Below are positions 3,116-45,347 of a stretch of 64,000 nucleotides of DNA, piece by piece. The notes under the pieces are model-generated. The model was not told the DNA's origin. It saw only the letters and a list, made by a program, of their open reading frames with translations, and made no database searches. The translations under genes were made by a program, and so were the position numbers. Each line of letters begins with the position of its first letter. Positions within the stretch are counted from its first letter, which is position 1. This DNA comes from Bacillus multifaciens (GTDB lineage: Bacteria; Bacillota; Bacilli; Bacillales; Bacillaceae_G): NCBI RefSeq assembly GCF_030756675.1, contig NZ_JAVBXD010000013.1:1-64000 (forward strand), read 5' to 3'.

Positions 3116-3868
3116 AAAAGGCTTGGGGGAAGCTCTTTTTTATTTCGTCATGCCTGTAAATATTGCGATATCAAAATATACAGTTAATGGGTTGATTCGC
3201 GCATGTATTCGCGATAAGTTTATCTTACTTTTAATATCTTTCAAATTACTTTCATAAATGTTATAAAAGTCTTTCATAAATATTACAAAAGTCTTTCTTT
3301 GACTGCAAAGACTTTCAGGCAATAGGAATGAAAAGTAAGTGAATAGCAGTCTCTAATGCATGTTAACAATAATCTTAATTAATGGGATTTAAAAGCAACA
3401 ATTGTTAATGCTCTTCGAGAATATTTATTGCTTTTTCAAGTAAAACATCAAATGCATATGATATATATACTGTATTCTATAATACAATAACTGAAATAAG
3501 AGGCTGCAGATCACTTGCTCTATGCAATTGATCCACATACGAACAATCAAGAATTTCTCCTAATCGATTAAAAATACATCTCAAGTAACATTATATATTG
3601 CTTCTCCTTTATTCAAGCAATATGTACATGTCTTCTATTTTCAACACGCTGTAACCATTTTAACACTTGTTGATACATATTTTCTTAATAAGTATTTTAA
3701 TCTCCTCACATGAATATTTAATACTTTCCTTATTACAAATTAAGATCAACGAAAGCTTTTTGTAACATTTACGAAAGTCTTTTGTAATAGTTATGAAAGT
3801 AATTTGAAAGATATTTAAATTAAGATGGGATTCCGAACATTAAATTCTTTTTAATCAGTAGGGAAAAA
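3116..3868. other. Intergenic stretch with decayed coding sequence
   Basis: About 750 bp of AT-rich sequence before the CATA array. The only structure seen is a probable decayed reading frame on the minus strand (entered separately) and two near-identical segments, AAAGTCTTTCATAAATATTACAAAAGTC and TGTAACATTTACGAAAGTC-like motifs (split here), near 3265-3300 and 3755-3810. No intact gene or convincing promoter is visible. Confidence 0.5.
3405..3690 (-). pseudogene. Possible decayed gene, product unknown
   Basis: Read on the minus strand, successive frames give protein-like pieces: MYQQVLKWLQRVENRRHVHI (from about 3690), then RCIFNRLGEILDCSYVDQL, HRASDLQPLISVIVL, and finally TVYISYAFDVLLEKAINILE ending at the TAA at 3405-3407. 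Two frame changes and an internal stop would be required. The amphipathic, coding-like composition is the only evidence. I do not recognise the family; a helix-rich regulator is possible. Confidence 0.3.
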
Positions 3869-3942
3869 CATACATACATACATACATACATACATACATA
3901 CATACATACATACATACATACATACATACATACATACATACA
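3869..3942. repeat. (CATA)18.5 microsatellite
   Basis: A perfect tetranucleotide repeat of 74 nt, 18.5 copies without interruption, ending 2 bp before the RBS GTGAGG of the downstream secreted protein. Repeats of this length are prone to slipped-strand changes. The position between promoter and RBS suggests possible expression variation, not reading-frame switching. Confidence 0.95.
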
Positions 3943-3959: not shown

Positions 3960-6149
3960 ATGAAAAAAAATTTAAAAACAACTGGAATTGGAAAAAAGGT
4001 AATCCCTGCAACAGCAGCATTAGGTATTCTTTTTTCTATGGCCCCTGTTGCAGAAAATAAGGCTAGCGCAGGGATAGGTACGGTACTAGATGTAACGATT
4101 ACTGCATTAGGTGCTGTAGCAAACATTTATGAGGGACTTGGATTAGCTCCAGGGGATATAGAACCAAGCACTACTATTGATGTATATGCAGAAAATATAG
4201 GTTACAAAGCTCCTAATTTTGCATCTGGGGAATTTAATATTTCCATGCATCATACAAAAGGTGATTCAAATTTTACTAAATCAGTTAAAGTACTCTATCC
4301 AAATGGGAAAATTGAAATTCATAAATTAAAATCTGGGCAGCAACTTAAAATTACTCAAGCGGGTATAATTATAGATCTAAACCCTGATGCAAAATCTGTC
4401 TCAGAACACGATCTTCTTTACATTACGCAAGCACAATTAGACGAAGGAAAGACCGGAGTTGTAATGAATCAAGATCACACTGCATTTGTAGAAAAAGCAT
4501 CTGGTAAAAATCCAAGATTGCTTAATCCACTTTATAAAAAATATTCAGGCGATTCGGCTCAAGACTGGAGCGTGATTGTTTATAGTCAGGATGTCCTATT
4601 TGATTATATATCAAATAAATTATCAAATGAGCAAAAACAACTAGTAACATTGACTTCAAAACCAGTATCCAAAGATGTTCTTTGGAATTATCTCACAAGC
4701 GATTCTGAAGCTCTTGCAGATTTTCATGATCGATCAGTAAATATATTAGCAGATACGACTCAGGCTCTAGAAACATCTATTAGAGTAGGAAACTCTGTAT
4801 TAGACGATAAACCTTATCAAATTATCCCAATTAAAAAAGGAAGCAATAAAGTAGTTGTAAAAAAAGGTTCAGAGTATCTTTCAGGGAAAGATAGAACTAA
4901 GTTCCAATATTCACATTCAATTGGGGATGACGAAATATTAGAACTTGTCCCAATCGAAAATTCTGATGACAATCAATTTAATCTGGTAAACAAGAATGGA
5001 GAACGTTTGGCGAATGATACCCTTCGTTTCAAAGGAAAAACAAACAATGAAATTCATAATTGGCTAAGAGAGTGGTATCCAGGTAAAGAAAATGAGAAAC
5101 AGAAGCATGACGGGATACAGATAGTACCTGATGAAAAGGATTCTAGAATATGGACTGCAAAAGATTCTTCTGGGAACGTGATAAAAAACAGTTGGGTAAG
5201 ATATGGTGGTGATCATTATCATTATGCAGGTTCTGATGGAGTTTTCGTGAAGGGCTGGCATGATGTTGAAGGGAAGACGTATTATTTTGGTTCAAATGGT
5301 GCATTCCGAGGAATGTATATTAACCCAGATATTGATGGTAAGCAATACCACTTTGATCATGAAGGTGTTTTGCAAAAATCAGCATGGCTAAATAAAAAAT
5401 ATTCTGATCATACTGGAGCATTTGTTAAAGAAGGTATACGAGAAATTGATGGTAAAATTTATTATTTCCAAAATTATGAGGCCACTACAAATGAACTGCG
5501 TCTAGAAGATCAATATACCATTCTTCACTTTGATGATAAAGGCGTACTTGAGAGAGTTACTGATCTGAATGGAAAAGCGCCAGGTAGCATAACTTATGTT
5601 ACTCTTGACGAGAAAAAGGTAGCGTTTGAAAAAGATGGGTCTATTAGGAAAAAAGGAGTCTCTAAAATCTTTCTACCTGGAATTACTATGGAAGAAAAAG
5701 ACCAGCCTACACTAGTTTATTACAGCTTGGAAGAAGGGCCTTTCTATTCTGGTTGGAAGGAAATCGATGGTAAAAAATATCATTTTCAGAATGGTAGACA
5801 CTTTACTTTTGATGGTCATGAACCTATTGACGGAAAAAGATATTATTTTAATCAAGACGGAGAGGCTAAGTTAACTGGGTTTGATAAAGTTAATGGTAAA
5901 ATATACCATTATAACGATAAAGGTGAAATGCAAACAGGGTGGCAAGAAATCAATGGTAAGTGGTATTACTTCGATGAGTCTGGAGCAGCTAAAATAGGAT
6001 GGTTCCAAGTTGGTGGCGGATACCACTTCCCTGATTACGGATACTTTACTTATTATGCTAAAGAGGATGGTTCTATTTATACAGATACCAAGGTTGAAAT
6101 TAATGGAAAAACCTATAAGTTTGACAGCCATGGACACAAAGGCTATTAA
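3960..6149 (+). CDS. Secreted protein with C-terminal cell-wall/choline-binding-type repeats
   Basis: 729 residues. A signal peptide (about 1-37: KK-rich start, hydrophobic ATAALGILFSMAPVA, cleavage near NKASA) is followed by a region of about 360 residues that I do not recognise. From about residue 400 to the end there are CW_binding_1-type aromatic repeats (GWHDVEGKTYYFGSNG, GWQEINGKWYYFDESGAA and others), the modules that attach proteins to wall polymers in choline-binding proteins and clostridial toxins. The protein therefore probably acts on or at the cell surface. A GTG at 3945 is in frame but is itself part of the RBS (GTGAGG), so ATG 3960 is chosen. The CATA microsatellite lies directly upstream. 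Toxin, adhesin or hydrolase roles are all possible. Confidence 0.8.
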   Translation: MKKNLKTTGIGKKVIPATAALGILFSMAPVAENKASAGIGTVLDVTITALGAVANIYEGLGLAPGDIEPSTTIDVYAENIGYKAPNFASGEFNISMHHTKGDSNFTKSVKVLYPNGKIEIHKLKSGQQLKITQAGIIIDLNPDAKSVSEHDLLYITQAQLDEGKTGVVMNQDHTAFVEKASGKNPRLLNPLYKKYSGDSAQDWSVIVYSQDVLFDYISNKLSNEQKQLVTLTSKPVSKDVLWNYLTSDSEALADFHDRSVNILADTTQALETSIRVGNSVLDDKPYQIIPIKKGSNKVVVKKGSEYLSGKDRTKFQYSHSIGDDEILELVPIENSDDNQFNLVNKNGERLANDTLRFKGKTNNEIHNWLREWYPGKENEKQKHDGIQIVPDEKDSRIWTAKDSSGNVIKNSWVRYGGDHYHYAGSDGVFVKGWHDVEGKTYYFGSNGAFRGMYINPDIDGKQYHFDHEGVLQKSAWLNKKYSDHTGAFVKEGIREIDGKIYYFQNYEATTNELRLEDQYTILHFDDKGVLERVTDLNGKAPGSITYVTLDEKKVAFEKDGSIRKKGVSKIFLPGITMEEKDQPTLVYYSLEEGPFYSGWKEIDGKKYHFQNGRHFTFDGHEPIDGKRYYFNQDGEAKLTGFDKVNGKIYHYNDKGEMQTGWQEINGKWYYFDESGAAKIGWFQVGGGYHFPDYGYFTYYAKEDGSIYTDTKVEINGKTYKFDSHGHKGY

Positions 6150-6298
6150 GTAATACAAAAAAAGTCTATTTTTATAAGTATCACTCGTTAAAAGGGATGC
6201 TTTTACCTGACTTAAGCATACAACCCTGAAAAACTAAAAATGACGGTTCCACTCAGTGAGTGAGAAAATCGTTTGAAGAGTTAGCTTATATATACAAA

Positions 6299-6352
6299 AA
6301 TGGGTCATATTATGTACTGGATTTTATTCCTATAATATGGTCCATTTTATTT
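6299..6352 (+). terminator. Likely terminator downstream of the repeat protein
   Basis: TGGGTCATATTAT pairs imperfectly with ATAATATGGTCCA and is followed by TTTTATTTTT. Confidence 0.55.
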
Positions 6353-6540
6353 TTACAGGTATACTCATTTCTTGTTGATTCTATCTTTTGAGATTGACGA
6401 AAATATAAATATTTTTGCTCAATTGAAATCACTCTATGAAGCTTTGAGAATTTCTTACTGTACAAAAAAGTTGAAATGTATATAACCGCTCTAAAAAAGT
6501 AAACCCTAACTCAATTTGTATAGTATTGGAGGTGTAACAA

Positions 6541-6930
6541 ATACATATAAAATTATCTCTCATTCAATTATTTCTGTTAATACTGAACTTATTTATATTT
6601 TCTTCAGCCATGCCATTTTTACCTTGGTTTATCGAGAGCGCTTTCGGATGGTTAGGGATCTTGGCTACTACTCCTTTATTGTTAATTATCGGTAGAATCA
6701 TGCCACAACTAAAAAAAAGCGAAGGATTTTGCATAACAAGAACAAGACAAGTTGTTCCTTTTATTGCATCCATTGTTTCACTATGTATCATGTTATTACC
6801 TACCATTGAATTATCGATTGTAATAGCTCTTGCGGTGAATGGTTTAATGGCGATCATCACAATTGCATTTTTGTTGCAAGATTTCTATAGATTGAATAAA
6901 AAACATAAGTTCATAAGGTTTATTATATAA
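6541..6930 (+). CDS. Small hydrophobic membrane protein, apparent ATA start
   Basis: Three to four membrane segments in about 129 residues (LSLIQLFLLILNLFIFSS, WLGILATTPLLLIIG, VPFIASIVSLCIMLLP, IVIALAVNGLMAIITIAFLL). The first ATG (6610) has no RBS and would cut the first segment. A near-perfect RBS GGAGGTG at 6528-6534 lies 6 nt before an in-frame ATA at 6541, which reads (M)HIKLSLIQLF. This means either a rare ATA start or an ATG lost by mutation. The family is not recognised. Transcription may stop in the following repeat. Confidence 0.55.
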   Translation: MHIKLSLIQLFLLILNLFIFSSAMPFLPWFIESAFGWLGILATTPLLLIIGRIMPQLKKSEGFCITRTRQVVPFIASIVSLCIMLLPTIELSIVIALAVNGLMAIITIAFLLQDFYRLNKKHKFIRFII

Positions 6931-6940
6931 ATCTGATTTA

Positions 6941-7105
6941 ATTTTTCGACATCAATATGGTCGCTACTTACTTGCTCCCTTCCTTATTTTGTTTTAAACC
7001 TTGCATGTGGCAGGAAAGGGCACTGACCGCTTCTATGCATGGCCAGATGCTCTCGCCTGCCTAAAAAGAAAGAGGGCTTTTATGTCAATTTTTTAATTTA
7101 TATTT
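6941..7105 (+). repeat. Dispersed repeat family A, copy 2
   Basis: Begins ATTTTTCGACATCA, contains TTGCATGTGGCAGGAAAGGG, CTGACCGCTTCTATGCATGG and CCAGATGCTCTCGCCTGCC, and ends with TTTTATGTCAATTTTTTAAT. It lies directly after the stop of the membrane protein gene. Confidence 0.8.
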
Positions 7106-7320
7106 ATAGAGCTTGTTTATTTCTATCAGCCTTACAGAACTGTCATCTTTATGTAAGGTTAGTAGATAGTTTATTTAATATTTAAATGTAATAATAAAAT
7201 CATAAGAAGTGATAATAAATTTTTAGAAATGATAAGAAAGTGTTGTTCGTAGTTATAACAACAACTAAAAAATGATTGAGAAAAAATTCAATATATACAT
7301 AATAAATGGAGGTAAATGTA

Positions 7321-7533
7321 ATGGCTTTAAAATTATTCGGTATCGTTCTTGGAGTGGTATTAATCTTATGGGGTTTATATAGAATGAAAAGAGATGATGC
7401 ATTCGTAGGAAAAACTCAAACAAGAAAAAATCTTTTCAATTTGTTGATTCTTGGAGAGGCTTCTGGGTTAGGACAATTATTAGGTGGAATTCTACTTGTC
7501 ATTTTAGTAATCGTATCCTTTATAATAAAATAA
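7321..7533 (+). CDS. Small two-helix membrane protein
   Basis: 70 residues. One membrane helix at each end (LFGIVLGVVLILWGLY and LGGILLVILVIVSFII) and a basic loop with KRDDAFVGKTQTRKN between. An ATG at 7306 overlaps the RBS (GGAGGT 7308-7313), so ATG 7321 with 7-nt spacing is the start. Function is unknown; it resembles the many small membrane proteins of the group. A truncated second copy with the same upstream sequence lies at 8735-8880. An intrinsic terminator follows at 7543. Confidence 0.7.
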   Translation: MALKLFGIVLGVVLILWGLYRMKRDDAFVGKTQTRKNLFNLLILGEASGLGQLLGGILLVILVIVSFIIK

Positions 7534-7542
7534 TTTGCAAAT

Positions 7543-7577
7543 AAAAGGAGCTAAGATCTATAGTTTAGCTCCTTTTG
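7543..7577 (+). terminator. Intrinsic terminator
   Basis: AAAAGGAGCTAA pairs with TTTAGCTCCTTTT. It follows the small membrane protein gene by 10 bp. Confidence 0.75.
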
Positions 7578-7852
7578 TTGTGATAAAACCTTTAAGTAAG
7601 ATTAATAATTTTTCTAGGTAAGGAGGGGGTAGCATTAGCAACCTATAAATTCCGTGTTCGCTATCTACCCTCTCACGATAAACTCTTGTATATATTTAAA
7701 CTATATCTTATAATCTAGATACGGACATTTATTAAAGCGGTAAGTTATTACCAATCCATTTTCTTACCTTTTTTCAACAAATCTTTTTCGATGAACCTAG
7801 TTTCCTTAGGTTCTTTTTTTTATGCAACAACTAAAGTATATAAATCAATTTT
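7578..7852. other. Gene-free stretch with two hairpins
   Basis: No reading frame with an RBS is seen. A large imperfect hairpin joins GAGGGGGTAGC (near 7622) to GCTATCTACCCTC (near 7660). A terminator-like stem GAACCTA-GTTTCC-TTAGGTTC with an eight-T run lies at 7795-7822. A short untranslated transcript ending there is conceivable, but no promoter was identified. Confidence 0.4.
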
Positions 7853-8012
7853 AATTTTTCGACATATAGATTGCAACTATGAAGAGGGTCCTGCACTTAT
7901 TGTCTACTTTTGTTTTCAAACCTTGCACGTGGCAGGAAAAGGCCCTGACCGCTTCTATGCATGGCCAGCCCTTCTCGCCCATTTAAAAAAATGCTTTTCT
8001 GTCGGTTTTTCA
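7853..8012 (+). repeat. Dispersed repeat family A, copy 3
   Basis: TTTTTCGACATATAGATTGC start, central CTTGCACGTGGCAGGAAAAG, CCCTGACCGCTTCTATGCAT and a TCTGTCGGTTTTTCAT end. More diverged in the first third than copies 1 and 5. The 74-codon open frame across it is a by-product of the repeat. Confidence 0.75.
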
Positions 8013-8104
8013 TAAAGTAACTGAGTAGTTACCTTTTTTCTAATAATTCTTCATTTCAATTCTTTTGAGTTTCACGTTTGTTGAACTAGTTGATTATATA
8101 AAAA

Positions 8105-8147
8105 AAGTACCCTCCACAATCAGAAATCTTTTCAGATGTGGCGGGTT
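8105..8147 (-). terminator. Terminator of the PlcR-linked peptide transcript
   Basis: On the minus strand ACCCGCCACATCTGA pairs imperfectly with TCTGATTGTGGAGGGT and is followed by ACTTTTTTTA. A second perfect 15-bp inverted repeat (CATACAAATGATCTG and its complement) lies between the peptide stop and this site, at 8188-8241. Confidence 0.55.
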
Positions 8148-8274
8148 ATTCTTTGAATCGTTTCCGTCCCTTTAGGGATCTTACTCATACAAATGATCTG
8201 CATATCAATAATACATCTTTAATATACAGATCATTTGTATGATAATTCTTATAAATAATAACTGAATGATAAAC

Positions 8275-8355
8275 TTACATAAATGCTTTTAAAAGTTCTT
8301 GAACTAATGGAAGTACTCCGCCTATAAATTTCAAAACTGCCATTGCGATTTCCAT
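8275..8355 (-). CDS. 26-residue amphipathic peptide, PSM-like or leaderless bacteriocin-like
   Basis: A complete small gene: AGGAGG (8363-8368 on the minus strand) 7 nt before ATG 8355, and TAA at 8277-8275. The peptide begins MEIAMAVLKFIGG, continues VLPLVQELLKAFM, has no signal peptide, has about zero net charge (two Glu, two Lys) and is strongly hydrophobic with Glu and Lys spaced as on one face of a helix. That is the make-up of phenol-soluble modulins and some leaderless peptides; I do not recognise this exact family. The upstream region has a consensus promoter, a cre-like site inside the promoter spacer and a perfect PlcR box, so expression is probably PlcR-activated (quorum/virulence) and carbon-repressed. 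The transcript would end at the hairpin near 8105. Function as a surfactant, cytolysin or antimicrobial is inference. Confidence 0.7.
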   Translation of the reverse strand: MEIAMAVLKFIGGVLPLVQELLKAFM

Positions 8356-8407
8356 ATTATTTCCTCCTCTTTTTGTGTGTTAAGATGTGATACATCTTTA
8401 TACTTCT

Positions 8408-8436
8408 ATTATAGTAAGCGCTTACAATTATATCAA
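8408..8436 (-). promoter_or_regulatory. Promoter with embedded cre-like site for the small peptide
   Basis: On the minus strand TTGATA (8436-8431), a 17-bp spacer and TATAAT (8413-8408), essentially consensus sigma-A. The spacer contains TGTAAGCGCTTACT (8427-8414), a close match to the catabolite responsive element bound by CcpA, so repression by preferred carbon sources is expected. Confidence 0.75.
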
Positions 8437-8474
8437 CACATTTTAATATGCAATATTGCATATTAAAATGTGTT
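8435..8474. promoter_or_regulatory. PlcR box within a perfect 40-bp palindrome
   Basis: TATGCAATATTGCATA at 8447-8462 matches the PlcR box TATGnAnnnnTnCATA completely. The symmetry extends without a mismatch from 8435 to 8474. It lies 10 bp upstream of the -35 element of the minus-strand peptide promoter. Confidence 0.85.
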
Positions 8475-8639
8475 TTAAACTCTCTTCTTTTTTTATCCTC
8501 TTTACAAAAGGGACATTTTAAAGGGATATTTTTCATCATTTTTAAATTAATATAGTTCGTTCACATCTAAATCGAATAATTTTAAGGGGAATATATGCCA
8601 ATCCTCTTATATAGGGGAATAACACATGCCCCTCAACTT

Positions 8640-8750
8640 AAGTAATTTTAATACTTTCAAATATACAAAAACGTTATTTTTATGCCGCTACTGGTACTTT
8701 ACTTAGCCTTGAGGGTTTAAATGCTAAAGCAGATACAATAACTAAAAAAT
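8640..8750 (+). pseudogene. Decayed fragment ending in a signal-peptide-like sequence
   Basis: One frame reads YFYAATGTLLSLEGLNAKAD and then TITKK before a stop at 8750-8752, which looks like the hydrophobic core and AxA-type cleavage region of a secreted protein. It has no start in frame and no mature domain. Support is weak. Confidence 0.2.
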
Positions 8751-8797
8751 GATTAAGAAAAAGTTCAATATATACATAATAAGTGAAGGTAAATATA

Positions 8798-8863
8798 ATG
8801 ATTTTAAAATTATTACTGATCGTTATTGGAGTGGCATTAATCTCATGTATCTTTTATCATTAA
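8798..8863 (+). pseudogene. Truncated duplicate of the small membrane protein gene
   Basis: The 60 bp before and the first part of this frame repeat the sequence around 7265-7370 (CAACTAAAAAATGATT, AATATATACATAAT, GGAGTGG-ATTAATCT), and the tail AAATAATTTGCAAATAAAA also matches. The middle is deleted, leaving MILKLLLIVIGVALISCIFY plus H. The RBS is degraded to GAAGGT. It is a duplication followed by an internal deletion of about 145 bp. Confidence 0.65.
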
Positions 8864-8876
8864 ATAATTTGCAAAT

Positions 8877-8905
8877 AAAAACCACCCGTGATAATGGGTG
8901 GTTTT
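8877..8905. terminator. Bidirectional terminator
   Basis: AAAACCACCC pairs with GGGTGGTTTTT around GTGATAAT. A-rich and T-rich flanks serve both the minus-strand secreted protein gene and the truncated plus-strand copy. Confidence 0.8.
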
Positions 8906-8908
8906 TGT

Positions 8909-9415
8909 TTACGGATGGTAAACTCCAAATGCGTAATGATAAACAGTATCCTCATTAACTGTCGGAATTGGGTTAGTTTTGTTAGGTCCATTGTAATATC
9001 CAAGAGTTACAATGTCATAATAATGTGTTGATCTTGAAGCATCAAAAGTGTACTCTCCCTTACCAGTAGGGATTTCTGTTGAACCTTCAAATGCACCATT
9101 TTCTCCTACAGTACATAAAATATCCTTTTTAGAAAAAGACATAACGGCATCGAAATAAATGTAAAAAGTTGTACCAGCAGGTACTGCTTTTCCTTCTGCA
9201 TCATATGCAAAACCTTTAAATGTGGCATTTTTATGTGCATTAACACGATACTTCTTACCTTGGCCATAGTTAATGTACTCATTATTACCTATGTTAGTAA
9301 TTTGTACTTTGTTTACAAGTGGAGTGTTTTCAGCTGCACTTGCATTAGTGTTTGGTAACATAAAACTAAACACCATTAATCCAATAAACATAAGTGACGA
9401 TATAATTTTCTTCAT
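8909..9415 (-). CDS. Secreted protein of unknown function, PlcR-box linked
   Basis: 168 residues. A clear signal peptide (MKKIISSLMFIGLMVFSFML with cleavage near NASAAE) is followed by a mature domain of about 140 residues with VQITNIGNNEYINYG, FYIYFDAVMSF and YNGPNKTNPIPTV, probably beta-rich. It lacks cysteine pairs typical of enzymes; I do not recognise a catalytic motif. Two adjacent ATGs are possible (9418 and 9415); the second gives 8-nt spacing from AGGAGG. A promoter (TTGAAA-17-TAAAAT at 9478-9450) and a perfect PlcR box at 9500-9515 precede it, shared with the divergent collagenase gene. It is probably an exported PlcR-regulon protein. Confidence 0.75.
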   Translation of the reverse strand: MKKIISSLMFIGLMVFSFMLPNTNASAAENTPLVNKVQITNIGNNEYINYGQGKKYRVNAHKNATFKGFAYDAEGKAVPAGTTFYIYFDAVMSFSKKDILCTVGENGAFEGSTEIPTGKGEYTFDASRSTHYYDIVTLGYYNGPNKTNPIPTVNEDTVYHYAFGVYHP

Positions 9416-9449
9416 CATTAAATCCTCCTGTATATTTTTTACAACCCAA

Positions 9450-9478
9450 ATTTTACATGTTTTGAAAATATATTTCAA
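9450..9478 (-). promoter_or_regulatory. Promoter of the secreted protein gene
   Basis: TTGAAA (9478-9473), a 17-bp spacer and TAAAAT (9455-9450) on the minus strand, 21 bp downstream of the PlcR box. Confidence 0.5.
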
Positions 9479-9499
9479 TATCTTTATATAATAATACAA

Positions 9500-9515
9500 T
9501 ATGCAATATTGCATA
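9500..9515. promoter_or_regulatory. PlcR box between divergent genes
   Basis: TATGCAATATTGCATA, identical to the box at 8447. It sits between the secreted protein gene (minus) and collagenase 1 (plus) and can serve both. Confidence 0.85.
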
Positions 9516-9579
9516 TTGTATTATTTTGTTGTAATAATATGTTATTTTTTGAAAGGAAAATATAAATGGAGGTAGTATT

Positions 9580-12480
9580 ATGAACAAGAAATCAAAATTT
9601 ACCCAAATGATGCTAGGCATTAGTACAATGGCCTTATCATTTGGAAGTATTCAAACACAAGTGTCAGCGGAAGAAAACACACCTTATAATGTATTGCAAA
9701 AGAAACCAATTGGGATAGAAACTTCAACAGATGAAATTGCACATTCTACAATAGCAGACGAAATGTTGTCTTATGAAGAACGTTTAAAAGTAGGCGATTT
9801 TTCACAACGTCCAGCTAAGGCCGTGAAACGAGCAGCGGCAAAACAATATCAGCAAAAGTACTCTGTGGCAGAGCTGAATAGAATGAGTGATGACGAATTA
9901 ATTGATACATTAGCAAATGTTAGTTGGGAGCAAATCATAGATTTAGGTCAATTTAATGAAGAAACAAAAGCGTTTTATCAAAATAAAGAGCGAATACAAG
10001 TTATTATTGATGAATTAGGTCGCCGCGGAAGCACATTTACACAAGATGATACAAAAGGAATTGAGACGTTTGTTGAAGTATTATATTGCGGTTTTTATTT
10101 AGGCTTTAATAATAAAGAATTAGACTATTTAAATGAGCAAAGCTTCCATGATAAATGTTTACCGGTATTAAAAGCAATTGCAAAAAATCCGAATTTTAAA
10201 CTTGGTACAGATAAACAGGATACAGTGGTATCTGCATACGGTAAATTAATTAGAAGTGCTTCTTGTGATGCTGAAACGGTTCAATATGCAGGGAATATAT
10301 TAAAACAGTATAACGATAATCTTTCTACATATGTAAATGACAAGAATAAGGGAGATGCTTTGTATAATCTTCTCCAAGCGATTGATGAGGATATACAGTC
10401 TTACGTGAGTGGTACAAGAAAAAAAGCAGATGAAACAATATGGTATGGGAAAATTGATGATTTTATAAATGAAATCAGTCGACTGGCTCTTCTGAATCAA
10501 ATGACACCAGAAAATACTTGGTTAATTAATAACGGTGTTTATTATACTGGTCGTTTCGGGAAATTCCATAGTGATTCAAATAAACCTTTAGAAGTACTTA
10601 CACAAGCAATGCGTATGTATCCTCGTTTTAGTGAAGCTTATTTTAATGCTGTGCAAGGAATCGCAACAAACTATGGTGGAAAAGATTACAACGGAAATAC
10701 AGTAGATTTACAGAAAATTCGTGAGGAAGGCCAACAGCAGTACTTACCAAAAACGTATACATTCGATGACGGTTCTATCGTATTTAAAACAGGAGATAAA
10801 GTAACGGAAGAAAAGGTTAAGAGACTGTACTGGGCTGCTAAAGAAGTAAAGGCGCAATATCATCGTGTCATTGGAAAAGATGCAGCGTTAGAAGCCGGAA
10901 AAGCTGATGATGTACTGACAATTGTAATTTATAATAGTCCAGATGAATATAAACGAAATAGTCAACTATATGGATATGACACGAATAATGGTGGGATTTA
11001 CATTGAAGGAGTTGGAACGTTCTTTACATATGAGCGTACACCGCAGCAAAGCCGTTATAGTTTGGAAGAATTGTTCCGTCATGAGTTTACACACTATTTA
11101 CAGGGAAGATACGAAGTTGCAGGGTCATGGGGACAAGGAGAAATGTATCAAGATCAACGCTTAACTTGGTTTGAAGAAGGAAATGCAGAGTTTTTTGCGG
11201 GATCGACTCGCACGAATAATGTTGTTCCACGCCAAAGTGTAATTAGCGGGTTATCATCTGATCCTGCACAGCGTTATACAGCAGAACGAACATTATTTTC
11301 GAAATATGGAGACGGACCAGATAAATGGGACTTTTATAATTATTCTTTTGCACTGCAGTCTTATCTATATACTCATCAATTTGAAACTTTCGATAAGATT
11401 CAAGATTTAATTCGTACAAATGATGTGAATGGTTATGATACATATCGTGAAGCTTTAAGTAAGGATCCAAATTTAAATAAAGGATACCAAGACTATATGA
11501 AGCAGTTAGTTGATAATCAGGGTACATATAATACCCCGCAAGTATCAGATGATTATTTAGCTGACCATGCACCAAAGCCACTAGCTGAGGTAAAGAAAGA
11601 CATTACAGATGTAGCAAAGATAAAAGATGCAACAATGACAAAGCATAAGTCTCAATTCTTTGACACGTTTACATTAGAAGGAACATATAGGGGCGGCGTA
11701 ACAAAAGGAGAATCTGAGGATTGGAAAACGATGAGCAAGAAAATCAATCAATCTTTAGAACAGTTAACGCAAAAAGAATGGAGCGGCTACAAAACAGTTA
11801 CAGCGTATTTTGTCAACTATCGTGTGAATGCGAAAAATCAATTTGAATACGATGTTGTATTCCATGGCGTTGCAACGGGAGAAGAAGAAAAACAGACTGT
11901 TAAAGTAAATATGAATGGACCGTACAATGAGATATTAAATGAAAAAGTTGAGTTTCATAGTGATGGTACAGAAAGCACAGGCGGAAAAATTGTTTCTTAT
12001 CTTTGGGATTTTGGAGATGGTACAACAAGTACAGAAGCAAATCCTACTCATGTATATGGAAAAGAAGGAACATATACTGCAAAGCTAACAGTGAAAGATA
12101 ATAAAGGAAAAGTGAGCCGAGGACAAACAACGGTTACCATAAAAAAGGATGAGCCGGCAGGTCATAACTATCAAGAGGCAAAGGTACTTAGTTTTAATAA
12201 GCTTTCAAAAGGAAATATGGATCGACCTAATATGGCGTATATGTACACATTCAATGTCACATCTCCAAAAGAAGTAGATATTTCTTTTATAGATGAACAG
12301 GGAATTGGGATAAAATGGGATGTGTATCACGAATCAGATCTAGGAAATCCTGTCATTACGGGCCAGGCGGATGGAAATAATATTAAAGGGAAATTTGAAG
12401 CGAAACCTGGGAAGTATTATTTAGTTGCGTTTTTTGAAGAGGAAAATAGAAATGGAACATATTCATTAATAGTAAAGTAA
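9580..12480 (+). CDS. colA: Secreted collagenase 1 (peptidase family M9), one PKD domain
   Basis: 966 residues. A signal peptide (about 1-30, ending VSAEE) is followed by the M9 activator and peptidase units. The zinc site is HEFTH at 501-505 (in LFRHEFTHYLQGRYE) with the third ligand Glu at 533 (TWFEEGNAEFF), the same 28-residue spacing as in clostridial ColG. After a helper region come one PKD domain (about 785-862, SYLWDFGDGTTSTEANPTHV) and a C-terminal pre-peptidase/collagen-binding domain (about 868-966). The enzyme cleaves native collagen outside the cell. GGAGGT gives an 8-nt spacing to ATG 9580. A PlcR box lies 65 bp upstream. Two paralogues are present in the window (25568 and 42711). 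Confidence 0.93.
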   Translation: MNKKSKFTQMMLGISTMALSFGSIQTQVSAEENTPYNVLQKKPIGIETSTDEIAHSTIADEMLSYEERLKVGDFSQRPAKAVKRAAAKQYQQKYSVAELNRMSDDELIDTLANVSWEQIIDLGQFNEETKAFYQNKERIQVIIDELGRRGSTFTQDDTKGIETFVEVLYCGFYLGFNNKELDYLNEQSFHDKCLPVLKAIAKNPNFKLGTDKQDTVVSAYGKLIRSASCDAETVQYAGNILKQYNDNLSTYVNDKNKGDALYNLLQAIDEDIQSYVSGTRKKADETIWYGKIDDFINEISRLALLNQMTPENTWLINNGVYYTGRFGKFHSDSNKPLEVLTQAMRMYPRFSEAYFNAVQGIATNYGGKDYNGNTVDLQKIREEGQQQYLPKTYTFDDGSIVFKTGDKVTEEKVKRLYWAAKEVKAQYHRVIGKDAALEAGKADDVLTIVIYNSPDEYKRNSQLYGYDTNNGGIYIEGVGTFFTYERTPQQSRYSLEELFRHEFTHYLQGRYEVAGSWGQGEMYQDQRLTWFEEGNAEFFAGSTRTNNVVPRQSVISGLSSDPAQRYTAERTLFSKYGDGPDKWDFYNYSFALQSYLYTHQFETFDKIQDLIRTNDVNGYDTYREALSKDPNLNKGYQDYMKQLVDNQGTYNTPQVSDDYLADHAPKPLAEVKKDITDVAKIKDATMTKHKSQFFDTFTLEGTYRGGVTKGESEDWKTMSKKINQSLEQLTQKEWSGYKTVTAYFVNYRVNAKNQFEYDVVFHGVATGEEEKQTVKVNMNGPYNEILNEKVEFHSDGTESTGGKIVSYLWDFGDGTTSTEANPTHVYGKEGTYTAKLTVKDNKGKVSRGQTTVTIKKDEPAGHNYQEAKVLSFNKLSKGNMDRPNMAYMYTFNVTSPKEVDISFIDEQGIGIKWDVYHESDLGNPVITGQADGNNIKGKFEAKPGKYYLVAFFEEENRNGTYSLIVK

Positions 12481-12520
12481 ATCTACTTATGATTTATATA
12501 TAGGATAGTTGTACAAGCTT

Positions 12521-12564
12521 CCTCCTATCATTTTTCCTATCATATTATGAAAAATGATAGGAGG
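12521..12564 (+). terminator. Hairpin that is also the RBS of the next gene
   Basis: CCTCCTATCATTTTTC pairs perfectly with GAAAAATGATAGGAGG. The right arm contains the AGGAGG of the following gene, so the structure both terminates or attenuates collagenase read-through and can hide that ribosome binding site. Confidence 0.6.
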
Positions 12565-12573
12565 TTTATTCAT

Positions 12574-13032
12574 TTGAGGAATAATTTCAATGAAAACAAT
12601 GCCCAGCTTTCACCGCCTTGGAACACATATTTTAATGAAATCAAATTTTCTATCGGGGCAGATCCAGGAGCAACAGTTGGACCACTTATTCCTGCTGGTA
12701 ACAATTATATTATTCTCGTAACAGTAACAGGGAATGAAAAAGCGAGAGCACTTGCAACACTTCTCAAACCTACAATGAATTTTGGAAATGTGAATGTAAA
12801 CATTTTTGTTTCAAATAGAGAAGGGCAGCTCGTTTCGCCGTTACCTTGTCCGTTAAATGCGTTTGGAATAACATCTTTAGTTCAAGTGGCATTAGAAGGG
12901 AATCCGTATTTTGCGAAAGTAGTTGCACAGCCCCAATTACCGGGTGGAAAGAATGTGGTGTGCCAATTTTGTTTTCTACAAATTGTAATGAAACAAGAGC
13001 AGTTAGTGAAAAGAAAGCGGATGTTGAGATGA
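12574..13032 (+). CDS. Hypothetical protein, TTG start, probable 3' frameshift
   Basis: 152 residues as read. AGGAGG (12559-12564) lies 9 nt before an in-frame TTG; the ATG at 12547 is inside the hairpin and upstream of the RBS. The body (PWNTYFNEIKFSIGADPG, GPLIPAGNNYIILVTVTGN) is soluble, compact and without a signal peptide. Near 12955-12965 the better coding sequence moves to another frame: VPILFSTNCNETRAVSEKK then ADVEMK, running to a stop at 13070, whereas the current end (FCFLQIVMKQEQLVKRKRM) looks out of frame. A one-base indel after the GGKNVV codons would join them. Family and function are not recognised. Confidence 0.5.
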   Translation: MRNNFNENNAQLSPPWNTYFNEIKFSIGADPGATVGPLIPAGNNYIILVTVTGNEKARALATLLKPTMNFGNVNVNIFVSNREGQLVSPLPCPLNAFGITSLVQVALEGNPYFAKVVAQPQLPGGKNVVCQFCFLQIVMKQEQLVKRKRMLR

Positions 13033-24602: not shown

Positions 24603-24618
24603 TATGCAATATTGCATA
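24603..24618. promoter_or_regulatory. PlcR box without an obvious target gene
   Basis: TATGCAATATTGCATA, identical to the boxes at 8447 and 9500. On the minus strand TTGGGT-17-TATATA follows, then a terminator 80 bp on. On the plus strand a TTTAT-family repeat begins 28 bp away and the next gene runs the other way. Confidence 0.8.
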
Positions 24619-25567: not shown

Positions 25568-28500
25568 ATGAAAAAGAAAATGAATAAAATTATGCTTGGA
25601 GTTAGTACAATGGCATTGTCGTTAGGGGCATTGCAAGCTGAAGTATCAGCGGAAGAAAAAGTACCTTACAATGTACTGCAAATGAAACCAGCAGGGATAG
25701 AAACGCCAAAAGATGCCATTTCTCATTCTTCAAAAGCTGATGAAACATTATCATATGAAGAGCGTTTAAAAGTCGGGAACTTTTTACAGAAGCCAGCTCC
25801 CACTATGGAAAGTGTAAAAGAGAAGCAGTCGCAACAAAGCTATACTTTAGATGAGCTGAATAAAATGAGCGATGAGGAGTTAATTGATACATTAGCAAAT
25901 ATTCGCAGCGGACAAATTAAAGATTTATTTCAGTTTAACGAAGCAACAAAAGCTTTCTATGGAAATAAAGAGCGTCTGCAAGTAATCATAAACGGGTTAG
26001 AGAAAAAAGGAAGTACATTTACAAAAAATGATGCAAAAGGAATTGATACGTTTACTGAAGTGCTTCGATCTGCTTTTTATGTCGGATATAATAATAATGA
26101 ATTAAGCTATTTAAATGAGAGAAGCTTCAAAGATAAGTGTTTACCGGCATTAAAAGCAATTGCAAAGAATCCAAACTTTAAACTTGGTACGGCTGAGCAG
26201 GATTTGGTTGTAAATGCTTACGGCGATTTAATGAGGAATGCTTCTAGTGACGTTGAAACGGTGCAATATGCAGCAAAAATTTTAAAACAGTATAATAATA
26301 ATCTCTCTACATATATAAGTGACCGTGCAAAAGGAAACGCTGTATACGCTTTAATACAAGCCGTTGATGTTGATATATATACTGATTGGATCCTTTCGGG
26401 TAAAGAGACAAAAGCGTCAATGTGGTATGGAAAGATTGATAGTTTCATAAATGAAGTCAATAAAATGGCGCTTATAGGTAATGTGACGGATAAAAATGGT
26501 TGGCTCATTAATAATGGGATTTACTGTGCAGGACGTTTAGGGAAGTTTCACAGTAATCCGAAAAAAGGATTAGACGTTGTTACCAAAGCGATGCAAATGT
26601 ATCCATATTTAGGAGAACAATATTTTGGTGCGGTACAGCAAATTGATACAAATTACGGCGGAGTAGATGCCAACGGAAAAACAGTAAATTTAAATCAAAT
26701 TAAAGAAGAGGGCAAGAAGAAATTTTTACCTAAAACGTATACATTTGATGACGGCGCAATTGTCTTTAAAACGGGAGATAAAGTGACAGAGGAAAAAATC
26801 CAAAGAATGTACTGGGCTGCGAAAGAAGTAAAAGCACAATATCACCGTGTGATTGGAAATGATAAAGCAATGGAAAAAGGGCATGCGGATGATGTATTAA
26901 CAGTCGTAATTTATAACACGCCAGATGAATATCAATTTAACCAGCAATTGTACGGCTATGAAACAGGTAATGGTGGTATTTATATTGAAAACGTCGGAAC
27001 GTTCTTTACATATGAACGTACACCGCAGCAAAGTATTTATAGTTTAGAAGAATTGTTCCGTCATGAATTTACACACTATTTACAGGGAAGATATGAAGTG
27101 CCTGAATTATTTGGGCAAGGAGACTTCTATCAAGATGAACGTTTGACATGGTATGCAGAAGGGAATGCGGAATTCTTTGCAGGATCGACGCGTACGAATA
27201 ACGTAGTGCCACGTAAGAGTGTAATAAGAGGTTTATCAAACGAACCAGCAAAACGTTATACAGCAGAGCAAACATTATTTGCAAAATATGGATCATGGGA
27301 TTTTTATAACTATTCCTTTGCATTGCAGTCTTATATGTATAATCAAAAATTTGATACATTCGACAAAATGCAAGATTTAATTCGTGCAAATGATGTGAAA
27401 GGTTATGATGCATACCGAGAGGCGTTAAGTAAAGATGAACAATTGAATAAAGAATATCAAACATATATGCAGCAATTAATTGATAATCGAGAAAAATTTA
27501 CTGTGCCGCAAGTATCAGATGATTATGTAGTAAGTCATGCACAGAAGGCACTAACTGAAGTGAATCAAGAAATTGCGGATGTTGCGAATGTAAAAGATGC
27601 AAAGCTTACAAAGCACAAGTCTCAATTCTTTAATACGTTTACAGTTGAAGGTACGTATACAGGCAATGCAACGAAAGGTGAATCTGAAGACTGGAAAACG
27701 ATGAGTAAACAAGTGAACGAATCATTAGAGAAGCTTTCACAAAAAGAATGGAGCGGTTATCAAACAGTAACAGCGTATTTTGTAAATTATCGTGTGAATA
27801 ATGAAAATCAGTTCGAATATGATATTGTTTTCCACGGTATTGCAACAGATGAAGGCGCAAGTCAAGGAACGATTGTAAGAAGAAAAGATTCATATTCCGG
27901 GGAAGAAAATAACGAAATTCAGTTTAAAAGCGATAGTTCAAAAATTGAAGATCGAAAAATCGTTTCTTATCTTTGGGACTTTGGAGATGGGGACACAAGT
28001 ACAGAAGAAAATCCTACCCATGCATATGAAAAAGCAGGAACGTATATGGCAACCTTAACAATGAAAGATGATCAAGGGAAAGAAAGTAAAGAACAAATGA
28101 CAGTTCATGTAGAGCGAACAAAAGCAACATATTTCGGGGAAGAAAATAGCGAAATTCAGTTTAAGAGCGATAGTTCAAAAGCCGAAGGTCGAAAAGTTGT
28201 TTCTTACCTTTGGGACTTTGGAGATGGGAAAACAAGCACAGAAGAAAATCCTACCCATACATATGAAAAAACAGGAACGTATACGGCAACCTTAACAACG
28301 AAAGATGATCAAGGAAAAGAAAGTAAAGAACAAATGATAGTTACTGTAGATCAAATAGGAGCAACTGAAACAGAACCAAATGATCGTCTTGAGCAAGCAA
28401 ATGAAATTCCGTTTAATACGCTTCTTAGAGGTTCACTTGAGGCTGATGATTCTAAGGATATTTATACATTTAACGTGTCATCACCAAAAGAAATGAATAT

Positions 28501-28708
28501 TTTGGTCAAGAACAAAGATAACATCAATATGATATGGGTGCTTTTCCATGAATCAGATATGAAAAAATACGTTGCATCCGCAAGACCTGAGGACAACCCT
28601 GATGGAAATATGCTTAAAGCAAAGTTTACTGCAAAACCAGGGAAGTATTATTTATATGTGTATGCTCCTGGTTTTGTAACTGGGACATATTCTGTTAAAG
28701 TAAAATAA
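25568..28708 (+). CDS. Secreted collagenase 2 (peptidase family M9), two PKD domains
   Basis: 1046 residues. Signal peptide (about 1-29, LGALQAEVSAEE), then activator and peptidase units with HEFTH at 499-503 and the third zinc ligand Glu 531 (TWYAEGNAEFF; the Phe-Glu of the paralogues is Tyr-Ala here). Two near-identical PKD domains follow (about 775-853 and 854-932, each with SYLWDFGDG) from a 237-bp tandem duplication, then the C-terminal pre-peptidase/collagen-binding domain. Start ATG 25568 has GGGGGAG upstream; a TTG further upstream is not preferred. A PlcR box precedes it. The stop codon TAA lies inside the ATAAA target copy of a 44-bp repeat. Confidence 0.92.
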   Translation: MKKKMNKIMLGVSTMALSLGALQAEVSAEEKVPYNVLQMKPAGIETPKDAISHSSKADETLSYEERLKVGNFLQKPAPTMESVKEKQSQQSYTLDELNKMSDEELIDTLANIRSGQIKDLFQFNEATKAFYGNKERLQVIINGLEKKGSTFTKNDAKGIDTFTEVLRSAFYVGYNNNELSYLNERSFKDKCLPALKAIAKNPNFKLGTAEQDLVVNAYGDLMRNASSDVETVQYAAKILKQYNNNLSTYISDRAKGNAVYALIQAVDVDIYTDWILSGKETKASMWYGKIDSFINEVNKMALIGNVTDKNGWLINNGIYCAGRLGKFHSNPKKGLDVVTKAMQMYPYLGEQYFGAVQQIDTNYGGVDANGKTVNLNQIKEEGKKKFLPKTYTFDDGAIVFKTGDKVTEEKIQRMYWAAKEVKAQYHRVIGNDKAMEKGHADDVLTVVIYNTPDEYQFNQQLYGYETGNGGIYIENVGTFFTYERTPQQSIYSLEELFRHEFTHYLQGRYEVPELFGQGDFYQDERLTWYAEGNAEFFAGSTRTNNVVPRKSVIRGLSNEPAKRYTAEQTLFAKYGSWDFYNYSFALQSYMYNQKFDTFDKMQDLIRANDVKGYDAYREALSKDEQLNKEYQTYMQQLIDNREKFTVPQVSDDYVVSHAQKALTEVNQEIADVANVKDAKLTKHKSQFFNTFTVEGTYTGNATKGESEDWKTMSKQVNESLEKLSQKEWSGYQTVTAYFVNYRVNNENQFEYDIVFHGIATDEGASQGTIVRRKDSYSGEENNEIQFKSDSSKIEDRKIVSYLWDFGDGDTSTEENPTHAYEKAGTYMATLTMKDDQGKESKEQMTVHVERTKATYFGEENSEIQFKSDSSKAEGRKVVSYLWDFGDGKTSTEENPTHTYEKTGTYTATLTTKDDQGKESKEQMIVTVDQIGATETEPNDRLEQANEIPFNTLLRGSLEADDSKDIYTFNVSSPKEMNILVKNKDNINMIWVLFHESDMKKYVASARPEDNPDGNMLKAKFTAKPGKYYLYVYAPGFVTGTYSVKVK
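27891..28364 (+). repeat. Tandem duplication of 237 bp encoding PKD domains
   Basis: The copy from 27891 (CATATTCCGGGGAAGAAAAT) and that from 28128 (CATATTTCGGGGAAGAAAAT) are 237 bp apart, an exact multiple of three (79 codons), and nearly identical along their length, indicating recent duplication. Confidence 0.9.
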
Positions 28709-29348: not shown

Positions 29349-29364
29349 TATGCATAATTGCATA
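29349..29364. promoter_or_regulatory. PlcR box between two divergent PH-like genes
   Basis: TATGCATAATTGCATA matches the PlcR box completely. It is 64 bp from the minus-strand gene and 82 bp from the plus-strand gene. Confidence 0.8.
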
Positions 29365-42710: not shown

Positions 42711-45347
42711 ATGGTGAAACACTCGAAATTTTATAAACTGATGCTTGGTGTGGGACTTGTTACAATATCATGTAATGGGATGCACATTCAAGCAGAGACA
42801 AAAGAAACAACTGCGAAGAATGTATTACAGATGGAGCCGGTAGGAATACAGAAATCCGTTGATGAGATAGCGCACTCTTCGAATGTACAAGAAAATGCAT
42901 CCTTTACAAAACGGTTAAAGCTAGCAGATTTATCGCAGCGTCCACCGATGCCGAAAGAAAATACTAAACAGCTAGCTGAAGAAAGAAAATATTCAATGGC
43001 CGAATTAAATCAATTAAGCAATAAACAATTAACTGATCTTCTTGTTACGATTCAATGGTATCAAATTCCGGAATTATTTCAGTTTACGAATGATAGTTTG
43101 AAGTTTTATCAAGATGATAGCCGCATGCAAGCAATTATTGATAAACTAGCAGAACAAGGTCGAACGTATACGCAAGATGATTCAAAAGGAATTGAGACAT
43201 TAGGAGAAGCTTTACGTGCGGCATTTTATTTAGGTTTTTATCATGATGAATTAAGCAAACTAAATGAGCGTAGCTATCATGATAAATGTTTACCAGCTTT
43301 AAAAACGATTGCCAAAAATCCAAATTTCAAACTTGGCACATCGGAACAAAACAAAGTTGTTTCATTGTATGGAAAGCTAATTGGAAATGCATCAGCTGAT
43401 GCTGAAGTGATTCAATATGCAGGTAAAATCTTCAAACAATATAACGATAATCTTGCAACTTTCATTGAAGACTACACAAAAGGAAATGCTGTGTATGAAT
43501 TGATGAAAAATATTGATTTTGATGTTCAGACGTATATGTATGATACGGGCAAAGAACCAAAAGATACGATGTGGTATCGAAACATTGATAGTTTTATTAA
43601 TGAAATAAATCGTTTTGCATTAATTGGTACAGTAACAGATAAAAACGGATGGTTAATTAATAACGGAATTTACTATGCTGGCCGACTTGGTAAGCTTCAT
43701 AGTACACAGGCAATAGGACAGCAGGTTGTTACAAAAGCGATGCAGATTTATCCATATTTAGGACAGCAATATTTTGTTGCGTTAGAACAAATTACTACAA
43801 ATTATGGCGGAGTAGATGCGAACGGAAAAACAGTAAATTTAGATCAAATCCGAGAAGATGGTAAGAAGAAATATTTGCCTAAAACGTATACACTTGATGA
43901 CGGGGCAATCGTCTTGAAAGCGGGGGATAAAGTTAACGAAGACAAAATTAAACGTTTATACTGGGCGGCAAAAGAAGTACGATCTCAATTTTATCGTACA
44001 GTTGGTAGTGATAAGCCGCTCGAAAGTGGACATGCTGATGATGTGTTAACAATGGTGATTTATAATAGTCCGGATGAATATCAATTTAACCGTCAATTGT
44101 ACGGCTATGAAACGAATAATGGCGGAATTTACATTGAAGGAATTGGAACGTTCTTTACATATGAGCGTACACCACAGCAAAGTATTTATAGCTTAGAAGA
44201 ATTATTCCGTCATGAATTTACACACTATTTACAAGGCAGATACGAAGTTCCTGGATTATGGGGACAAGGAGACTTTTATCAAAATGAACGCTTAACCTGG
44301 TTTGAAGAAGGAAATGCGGAATTCTTTGCCGGATCAACACGATTAGATAGCGTTGTACCGCGAAAAAGTATAATTGGCGGATTATCCAATGATCCAGCGA
44401 AACGATATACGGCAGAGCAAACATTAAATGCAAAATACGGAACGTGGGATTTTTATAACTATTCGTTTGCATTGCAATCTTATATGTATAATAACCGTCC
44501 TGAAATGTTTGATAAAATACATGATTTAATTCGTACAAATGATACCTCAGGTTACGATGCGTATCGCTCTGTATTAAGTAAAGATAATCAATTAAATGCA
44601 GACTACCAATTTTATATGCAAATGTTGATTGATAATCGTGATAAGTATACAGTTCCACAAGTATCAGATGATTATTTAGCACAGCATGCTCCGAAAGCGA
44701 TTTCGGAGGTTGAAGCAGATATTACCAATGAAGCGAAGTTAAAAAATGTGAAAGTAACAAAGAATAAATCACAATTCTTTAACACATTTACACTACAAGG
44801 AACATATACAGGAAGTGCGTCAAAAGGAGAAAATGAGGACTGGAAAGCGATGAATCAAGCAACGAATGACATGCTGAAACATCTTTCCGAAAAAGAGTGG
44901 AGTGGATACAAAACATTGACTGCCTATTTCGTGAATTACCGCGTCAATTCAGCTGGACAAGTTGAATATGATGTTGTGTTTAGCGGAATAAATACGGAAG
45001 AAGATACTGCGGTAGAAAAAGAACCAAATAATACATTTGATAAAGCGAATCCACTGTCTTTAAATATATTATTACGAGGCAGCTTAAGTGATCAAGATCA
45101 AGTTGATCGGTTTGTTATTGATGTAAAAGATCCGAAAGATTTACAGATTACCGTTACGAATGAACAGAACCTTGGAATGAATTGGGTATTATATTCTGAA
45201 TTAGACTTAAATAATTATGCCGCATATGCAACAAAACGAGATGGAAATAAATTGCTTGGAAATTATAATGCGAAGCCAGGGAAATATTACTTAAGTGTAT
45301 ATAAATATAGCGGTGGAACAGGGAATTATACGGTAGAGGTAAAATAG
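42711..45347 (+). CDS. Secreted collagenase 3 (peptidase family M9), no PKD domain
   Basis: 878 residues. Signal peptide (about 1-26, ending IQAET), activator and peptidase units with HEFTH at 501-505 and Glu 533 (TWFEEGNAEFF), helper region, then directly the C-terminal pre-peptidase/collagen-binding domain (about 780-878, DQDQVDRFVIDVKDPKDLQI). The PKD module of the two other collagenases is absent. AAGAGG lies about 8 nt before ATG 42711. Unlike its paralogues, no PlcR box is seen upstream, so its control probably differs. The catalytic residues are intact. Confidence 0.92.
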   Translation: MVKHSKFYKLMLGVGLVTISCNGMHIQAETKETTAKNVLQMEPVGIQKSVDEIAHSSNVQENASFTKRLKLADLSQRPPMPKENTKQLAEERKYSMAELNQLSNKQLTDLLVTIQWYQIPELFQFTNDSLKFYQDDSRMQAIIDKLAEQGRTYTQDDSKGIETLGEALRAAFYLGFYHDELSKLNERSYHDKCLPALKTIAKNPNFKLGTSEQNKVVSLYGKLIGNASADAEVIQYAGKIFKQYNDNLATFIEDYTKGNAVYELMKNIDFDVQTYMYDTGKEPKDTMWYRNIDSFINEINRFALIGTVTDKNGWLINNGIYYAGRLGKLHSTQAIGQQVVTKAMQIYPYLGQQYFVALEQITTNYGGVDANGKTVNLDQIREDGKKKYLPKTYTLDDGAIVLKAGDKVNEDKIKRLYWAAKEVRSQFYRTVGSDKPLESGHADDVLTMVIYNSPDEYQFNRQLYGYETNNGGIYIEGIGTFFTYERTPQQSIYSLEELFRHEFTHYLQGRYEVPGLWGQGDFYQNERLTWFEEGNAEFFAGSTRLDSVVPRKSIIGGLSNDPAKRYTAEQTLNAKYGTWDFYNYSFALQSYMYNNRPEMFDKIHDLIRTNDTSGYDAYRSVLSKDNQLNADYQFYMQMLIDNRDKYTVPQVSDDYLAQHAPKAISEVEADITNEAKLKNVKVTKNKSQFFNTFTLQGTYTGSASKGENEDWKAMNQATNDMLKHLSEKEWSGYKTLTAYFVNYRVNSAGQVEYDVVFSGINTEEDTAVEKEPNNTFDKANPLSLNILLRGSLSDQDQVDRFVIDVKDPKDLQITVTNEQNLGMNWVLYSELDLNNYAAYATKRDGNKLLGNYNAKPGKYYLSVYKYSGGTGNYTVEVK

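Follow-up and report, generated by a model that had tools for sequence, protein, structure and literature searches.

The closest described system is the Spp family of the Bacillus cereus group, which Brillard and Lereclus reported in 2007 as a 78-bp ORF for a 26-residue peptide, with a PlcR box on one side of it and the cereolysin O gene on the other in strain ATCC 14579 (PMC1913518). In the sections of that paper available to us, two further paralogues are given for ATCC 14579, with orthologues across the B. cereus group and none in NVH 391-98. The peptides, which were named Spp there, have no predicted signal peptide and carry Gly-Gly at positions 12-13 in all published orthologues, while their genes have sigma-A-like promoters and a PlcR box (consensus TATGNAN4TNCATA) about 100 nt upstream; Spp1 is given as 2.9 kDa, with its last 13 residues at 1.5 kDa. 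Expression of lacZ was PlcR-dependent for all three genes of ATCC 14579, pep1-3, of which pep2 and pep3 are reported to lie near no particular gene (PMC1913518). As far as the accessible text goes, Gohar et al. in 2008 included the genes as sppc1-3 (Bc5101a, Bc2463a and Bc3185a) among 45 PlcR-controlled genes (PMC2464732), and SppC1-3 are repeated as PlcR-regulated antimicrobial peptides in PMC6199538. The accessible text of a 2026 review contains no Spp, its three occurrences of "spp" all being "Bacillus spp.", nor does it contain "small peptide", "antibacterial peptide" or "phenol-soluble" (PMC13247181). Our literature search found no functional follow-up on Spp in the text that it covered.

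Leaderless bacteriocins of the B. cereus group such as toyoncin and bawcin, in the descriptions at hand, have no leader, as we read Spp, and are active on Gram-positives, though toyoncin has 70 residues whereas Spp has 26 and is PlcR-controlled. Like Spp as we read it below, the phenol-soluble modulins and delta-lysin are short, leaderless, amphipathic, quorum-controlled and encoded by tandem small genes. The modulins work as bulk membrane-active peptides that are used whole, and they are exported by a Pmt-type ABC transporter. Spp differs from this group in showing no sequence or profile match to it and in having a Gly-Gly-x-x-Pro centre. Double-glycine bacteriocins and competence peptides, finally, have in common with Spp the Gly-Gly motif and a first half that is the less variable one.

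The spp copy of the window and its surroundings

The window, which is the whole 64-kb stretch of DNA that was analysed (64,000 nucleotides), contains one spp copy, with the following features in and around it.

8275..8355, minus strand: spp gene, a 26-codon ORF for an Spp-type peptide (ORF list; B. arachidis copies 77-81% identical; masses)
8363..8368, minus strand: ribosome binding site AGGAGG, 7 nt 5' of the ATG, same or near-same in aligned relatives
8408..8413, minus strand: -10 hexamer TATAAT (promoter scan), identical in five of five aligned promoters
8413..8426, no strand assigned: cre-like palindrome with core GTAAGCGCTTAC, between -35 and -10, core identical in four of five promoters
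8431..8436, minus strand: -35 hexamer TTGATA (promoter scan)
8447..8462, no strand assigned: PlcR box TATGCAATATTGCATA, 91 nt before the ATG, fitting TATGNAN4TNCATA
8435..8474, no strand assigned: perfect 40-bp palindrome with the PlcR box at its centre; the window has none longer
8185..8242, minus strand: long 3' hairpin in the transcript (arms found, fold), without an adjacent U-run
about 8100..8146, minus strand: possible transcription terminator, a hairpin and then a T-run, found by eye and partly in the computed fold

Read from 8355 to 8275 on the minus strand, the gene encodes MEIAMAVLKFIGGVLPLVQELLKAFM, a peptide of 26 residues with Gly-Gly at positions 12-13, a net charge of about zero and no signal peptide as judged by eye. 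Its computed mass of 2862.6 Da, and that of 1500.9 Da for its last 13 residues, agree with the 2.9 and 1.5 kDa of Spp1. The window peptide has all of the Spp features that were tested (length, Gly-Gly position, box distance, promoter and masses), and the likeness to the published family extends to the missing signal peptide, a sigma-A-type promoter, a box at about 100 nt, multiple copies and a cytolysin-linked member. The window gene is thus almost certainly a copy of spp (sppc), a PlcR-regulated family of the B. cereus group, as matched by the published description and by relatives on plasmids of Bacillus arachidis; the identification was made by features and by these relatives, not letter by letter against Spp1 of ATCC 14579. 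The earlier note on this DNA had stated that no such peptide was known in the PlcR regulon, which was wrong, since Spp/Sppc was published in 2007-2008 (PMC1913518, PMC2464732) and the gene family is already described.

Over its full length the peptide has a hydrophobic moment of 0.435 against a shuffle mean of 0.151, and about 1 in 10,000 shuffles reaches as high a value (20,000 shuffles). The moment of the last 13 residues taken alone is also unusual, being reached by 0.13% of shuffles, and the amphipathicity of the first 13 alone is not significant, with 9% of shuffles as high. A helix would be kinked at the Gly-Gly-x-x-Pro in mid-peptide (Pro16). Sequence searches of Pfam, NCBIfam and PDB chains with the window peptide gave no match at E up to 10, where a 26-residue query has low power, and Rfam at gathering scores gave two matches in the window, neither of them at the spp locus. 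Membership of the modulin family by descent was rejected on the empty Pfam, NCBIfam and PDB-chain searches. What the earlier note had proposed for the gene itself, a 26-residue amphipathic peptide without signal peptide behind a PlcR box and with AGGAGG at 7-nt spacing, is borne out by the ORF list, the box and the shuffle test in the one case, and by the site at 8368-8363 in the other.

The window also contains pckA, metK and leuS, and, to judge by locus numbers, the spp copy in this setting corresponds to none of the three sites in ATCC 14579. In that strain pckA is BC4762 in the available text of PMC2358912, whereas the spp genes are Bc5101a, Bc2463a and Bc3185a, so that the window site would be unused in ATCC 14579 if gene order is shared. 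The window copy stands alone; some 1.2 kb separate it from the first of the window's three collagenase genes, and the gap contains a divergent gene, apparently for a small secreted protein. The three genes are of the M9 type and lie within 64 kb (9580-12480, 25571-28708 and 42711-45347), with PlcR-box pattern matches before the first two (9500 and 25487) and further matches at 24603, at 29349 and, inside an ORF, at 37628. A second PlcR box stands in a 36-bp perfect palindrome at 9490-9525, between the collagenase gene at 9580-12480 on the plus strand and the divergent ORF on the minus strand (8909 to about 9421), which looks like a small secreted protein. Around spp there are duplicated stretches (7258-7370 and 8735-8847; 6987-7067 and 7909-7989), and a 75-aa ORF (7306-7533) recurs in what appears to be a truncated second copy, an ORF ending at 8863; DNA similar to this region, with small hypothetical genes in it, is also present on the B. 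arachidis plasmid unnamed1. At 3868-3942 an ACAT tetranucleotide is repeated perfectly 18.8 times, just upstream of a choline-binding-repeat protein gene (GTG 3945 or ATG 3960 to 6149); the tract is a candidate for phase variation.

Tandem relatives on Bacillus arachidis plasmids

Of 72,556 plasmid records searched by tblastn, 3 contain the peptide, each of them from Bacillus arachidis YX15. There are nine places in all, and the best one of each record is 76.9-80.8% identical over the whole length. Plasmid unnamed1 (NZ_CP127373.1) has a three-gene tandem array (L001 2855-3227) and one single copy, and plasmid unnamed3 has one copy. In the case of plasmid unnamed2 (NZ_CP127374.1), there are four complete tandem copies with identical peptides, preceded by a first copy that differs slightly and runs across the record start, in two halves that were not joined.

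NZ_CP127374.1 (unnamed2), L010 1-685 and L011 1-160: five-gene spp array

This array, which contains a 77% identical relative, has a PlcR box before its first gene and a "thiol-activated cytolysin" gene 48 bp after its last, which is the layout of spp1 and which ties the window peptide to Spp. Each of the tandem genes in the arrays of three and five has its own ribosome binding site, suggesting a need for dose. In gene tables that are stated to be incomplete, no listed gene overlaps any of the nine complete B. arachidis copies, in keeping with the earlier suggestion that the gene is of a kind missed by annotation. A tblastn search of phages gave no Spp relative, a pattern scan of viral contigs gave no strict match and eight loose ones, none of which has an Spp-like ORF by eye, and a scan of a contig set without B. 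cereus-group members gave two matches (Desulfatitalea and Sphingomonas), neither of them with an Spp-like ORF.

All nine complete B. arachidis copies keep the 26 codons, the frame and the Gly-Gly. The check suggested in the earlier note, for frame breaks under a kept promoter, therefore returned none, and promoter and frame are conserved together among these plasmid copies. Each of the nine comparisons with the window gene gives a pN (0.089-0.132) lower than pS (0.15-0.38), but these comparisons involve few sites and are not independent of one another, and among the B. arachidis copies themselves pN exceeds pS in several pairs. When the same substitutions were placed at random in the window gene, for six of the nine copies, 0.05-0.96% of 20,000 trials yielded a peptide that was free of stops and scored as high by BLOSUM62. 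Simply counting changed residues set apart only the two copies that had diverged most (0.6% and 3.1%) and gave ordinary values for the remaining four (10-21%). This substitution bias gives modest support to selection on the kind of residue. The complete copies differ from the window peptide at one or two of the first 13 residues and at three or four of the last 13, and an argument for a leaderless peptide from conservation of both halves was dropped, because the halves differ, the first being less variable.

Promoter, spacer palindrome and 3' end

The PlcR box at 8447-8462 stands, as had been claimed, inside the 40-bp perfect palindrome at 8435-8474, whereas 30 simulated versions of the window (first-order Markov) had no palindrome longer than 22 bp. 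The claim of a consensus promoter, TTGATA-17-TATAAT, likewise held, with the hexamers at 8436-8431 and 8413-8408 upstream of spp, 11 of 12 consensus matches and a 17-nt spacer. Five promoters were aligned, namely that of the window, two of unnamed1 and one each of unnamed2 and unnamed3, and the 5' leader is partly conserved among them.

The cre-like site between the hexamers has one mismatch to the 14-base B. subtilis consensus and one mismatch to the 16-base B. cereus consensus WWGWAARCGWWWWCAW (PMC2358912, seen in part). Across the window, however, there are 7 matches to the 14-base consensus against 8.3 expected and 2 to the 16-base consensus against 2.3 expected. The cre-like site announced by the earlier note is thus present in the spacer, but such matches occur in the window at chance frequency, so that the motif by itself proves nothing and was rejected as evidence, and the weight of the site is at most that of its position and conservation. 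The spacer palindrome is kept in all five aligned promoters. In the fifth, the cytolysin-linked promoter of unnamed2, ATAAGCGCTTAT takes the place of GTAAGCGCTTAC, with both ends altered and the palindrome retained, and such a symmetric change suggests a symmetric binding site between -35 and -10, and hence repression. Because this promoter does not fit the cre ends, CcpA would be the likeliest among possible readers of the site, and CcpA control of spp is tentative, its chances standing somewhat below even. The available text of PMC2358912 names nhe and hbl as putative CcpA-regulated operons of ATCC 14579, and BC5101, cereolysin, BC3185 and BC2463 have no occurrence in its main text. The conserved cre-like palindrome is the ground for the putative carbon control.

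The terminator that the earlier note had placed after the gene was not called by a pattern scan of 7900-8600. A hairpin does exist at 8185-8242, yet it lies beyond the interval then assigned to the gene and has no adjacent U-run. The 216-nt 3' stretch folds with z = -6.7. The long hairpin (ACAAATGATCTG...CAGATCATTTGT) is found after spp in the window as well as after three B. arachidis copies or arrays, and this recurrent element may stabilise the mRNA or be a small repeat.

L001 about 3256-3320, L009 about 284-350 and L004 about 1616-1690: like hairpins of B. arachidis

Mode of action and alternative explanations

In the reading of the locus as a whole, as an Spp copy that PlcR would drive and that may encode a leaderless membrane-active peptide, our confidence is about 0.7. 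According to this reading, PlcR-PapR would turn the window spp copy on at high cell density, and the whole 26-residue peptide would be made without a leader and would lie on membranes as an amphipathic helix. It would reach the outside without the Sec pathway and, in bulk, would disturb the membranes of competitors or host cells, perhaps aiding the cholesterol-dependent cytolysin that is co-transcribed with one family member, and on good carbon spp would be kept low by a CcpA-type repressor bound at the spacer palindrome. The sequence itself shows the gene, its promoter, the PlcR box and their conservation; we infer that the peptide bypasses Sec, is formylated and acts on host cells, and a phenol-soluble-modulin-like toxin or surfactant, as the earlier note had it, is unproven. 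That Spp is a convergent B. cereus-group counterpart of the phenol-soluble modulins (leaderless, under PlcR and cre control, with tandem dose and made with a cytolysin) is a rather unlikely proposition.

The published view is that Spp is a bacteriocin-like precursor, in which the first 13 residues are a double-glycine leader and an ABC transporter with leader peptidase frees an active 13-mer. In the available text of PMC1913518 the Gly-Gly at 12-13 is found in all published orthologues, and the synthetic C-terminal 13-mer had greater activity than the full 26-mer, a point in favour of cleavage; the assays concerned antibacterial action only and required millimolar doses, the authors named hydrophobicity as a possible cause of the greater activity of the 13-mer, and they described synthesis and secretion of Spp as without evidence (PMC1913518). 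The Gly-Gly is also found in the window copy and in nine of nine complete B. arachidis copies, and there is less variation in the first 13 residues than in the last 13. Cleaved precursors usually have a leader that is better conserved than the core, so the conservation pattern is not in favour of a leaderless peptide and fits a cleaved leader equally. Double-glycine leaders carry an acidic/Leu pattern, however, and the first 13 residues, MEIAMAVLKFIGG, do not have it when judged by eye against the consensus. A C39-peptidase ABC transporter is encoded on one of the three plasmids, unnamed1, where the adaptor gene ends about 4 kb from the single spp copy, but five annotated genes of other or unknown kinds lie between the two, and the transporter has a neighbour of its own, a 71-aa ORF with a textbook-looking leader, LTQEEMLNIDGG, which Spp does not resemble. 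The other two spp-bearing plasmids have no C39 domain at E <= 0.1, and none is found among the window ORFs scanned with Pfam. Amphipathicity over the whole peptide and arrays with as many as five genes are the better fit to a bulk membrane-active peptide used whole, and on balance we lean towards a leaderless, membrane-active peptide, whose probability as judged from sequence comes close to even, over double-glycine cleavage, which we regard as rather unlikely.

The stretch of unnamed1 at L020 1691-5607, in which a C39-peptidase ABC transporter, a HlyD-type adaptor and the divergent 71-aa ORF with its Lys-Gly repeat (no Pfam family) are found together, looks like a bacteriocin cluster; transporter and adaptor are 4-5 kb from the single spp copy.

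Three further explanations were considered. The ORF might be a leader peptide or an RNA element governing a downstream cytolysin gene, with which the recurrence of the 3' hairpin and the partial conservation of the 5' leader are consistent, but there is no minus-strand ORF of at least 110 aa between the window spp and position 1217, pep2 and pep3 lie near no particular gene in the available text of PMC1913518, nucleotide changes lean towards retention of the peptide, and five near-identical tandem genes make poor sense as an attenuator. We consider this improbable, and an attenuator or leader peptide was rejected on account of the stand-alone copies. A toxin of a type I toxin-antitoxin pair, that is, a small hydrophobic membrane peptide checked by antisense RNA, would likewise be short, hydrophobic and multicopy, as the spp product is on plasmids and in this chromosomal window, and a weak promoter-like match (9/12) does lie on the opposite strand at 8219-8246. 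Promoter-like matches in the spp region are nevertheless near chance (7 against 3.9 +/- 2.0 expected), the pattern of the peptide is amphipathic and not transmembrane, and activation by a quorum-sensing virulence regulator is a misfit, so that this explanation, rejected for want of a sound antisense promoter, has very little probability. The least probable is a chance ORF beneath the PlcR-driven promoter of a non-coding transcript: 26 codons are short, and the interval 4000-13000 has 135 overlapping ORFs of 20 aa or more, but in relatives the ribosome binding site, frame and peptide are conserved together and the substitutions are biased, and on the conserved frame and this bias it was rejected.

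Returning to the reading of the gene as an spp copy, the additions to the published record are the arrays of three and five genes, the spacer palindrome kept in five of five promoters and the poor fit to a double-glycine leader; the palindrome, the tandem arrays and the plasmid copies go unmentioned in the available text of PMC1913518 and PMC2464732. Together these additions tilt the balance from cleavage to a leaderless amphipathic membrane peptide that would resemble modulins in its working but not in its descent. As Spp genes are missing from the gene tables examined and from Pfam and NCBIfam, their rediscovery will go on. If the leaderless, modulin-like reading is true, descriptions of how B. 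cereus lyses and competes lack one membrane-active product of the PlcR regulon, and the puzzle of 2007, a small peptide made with cereolysin O, would become testable.
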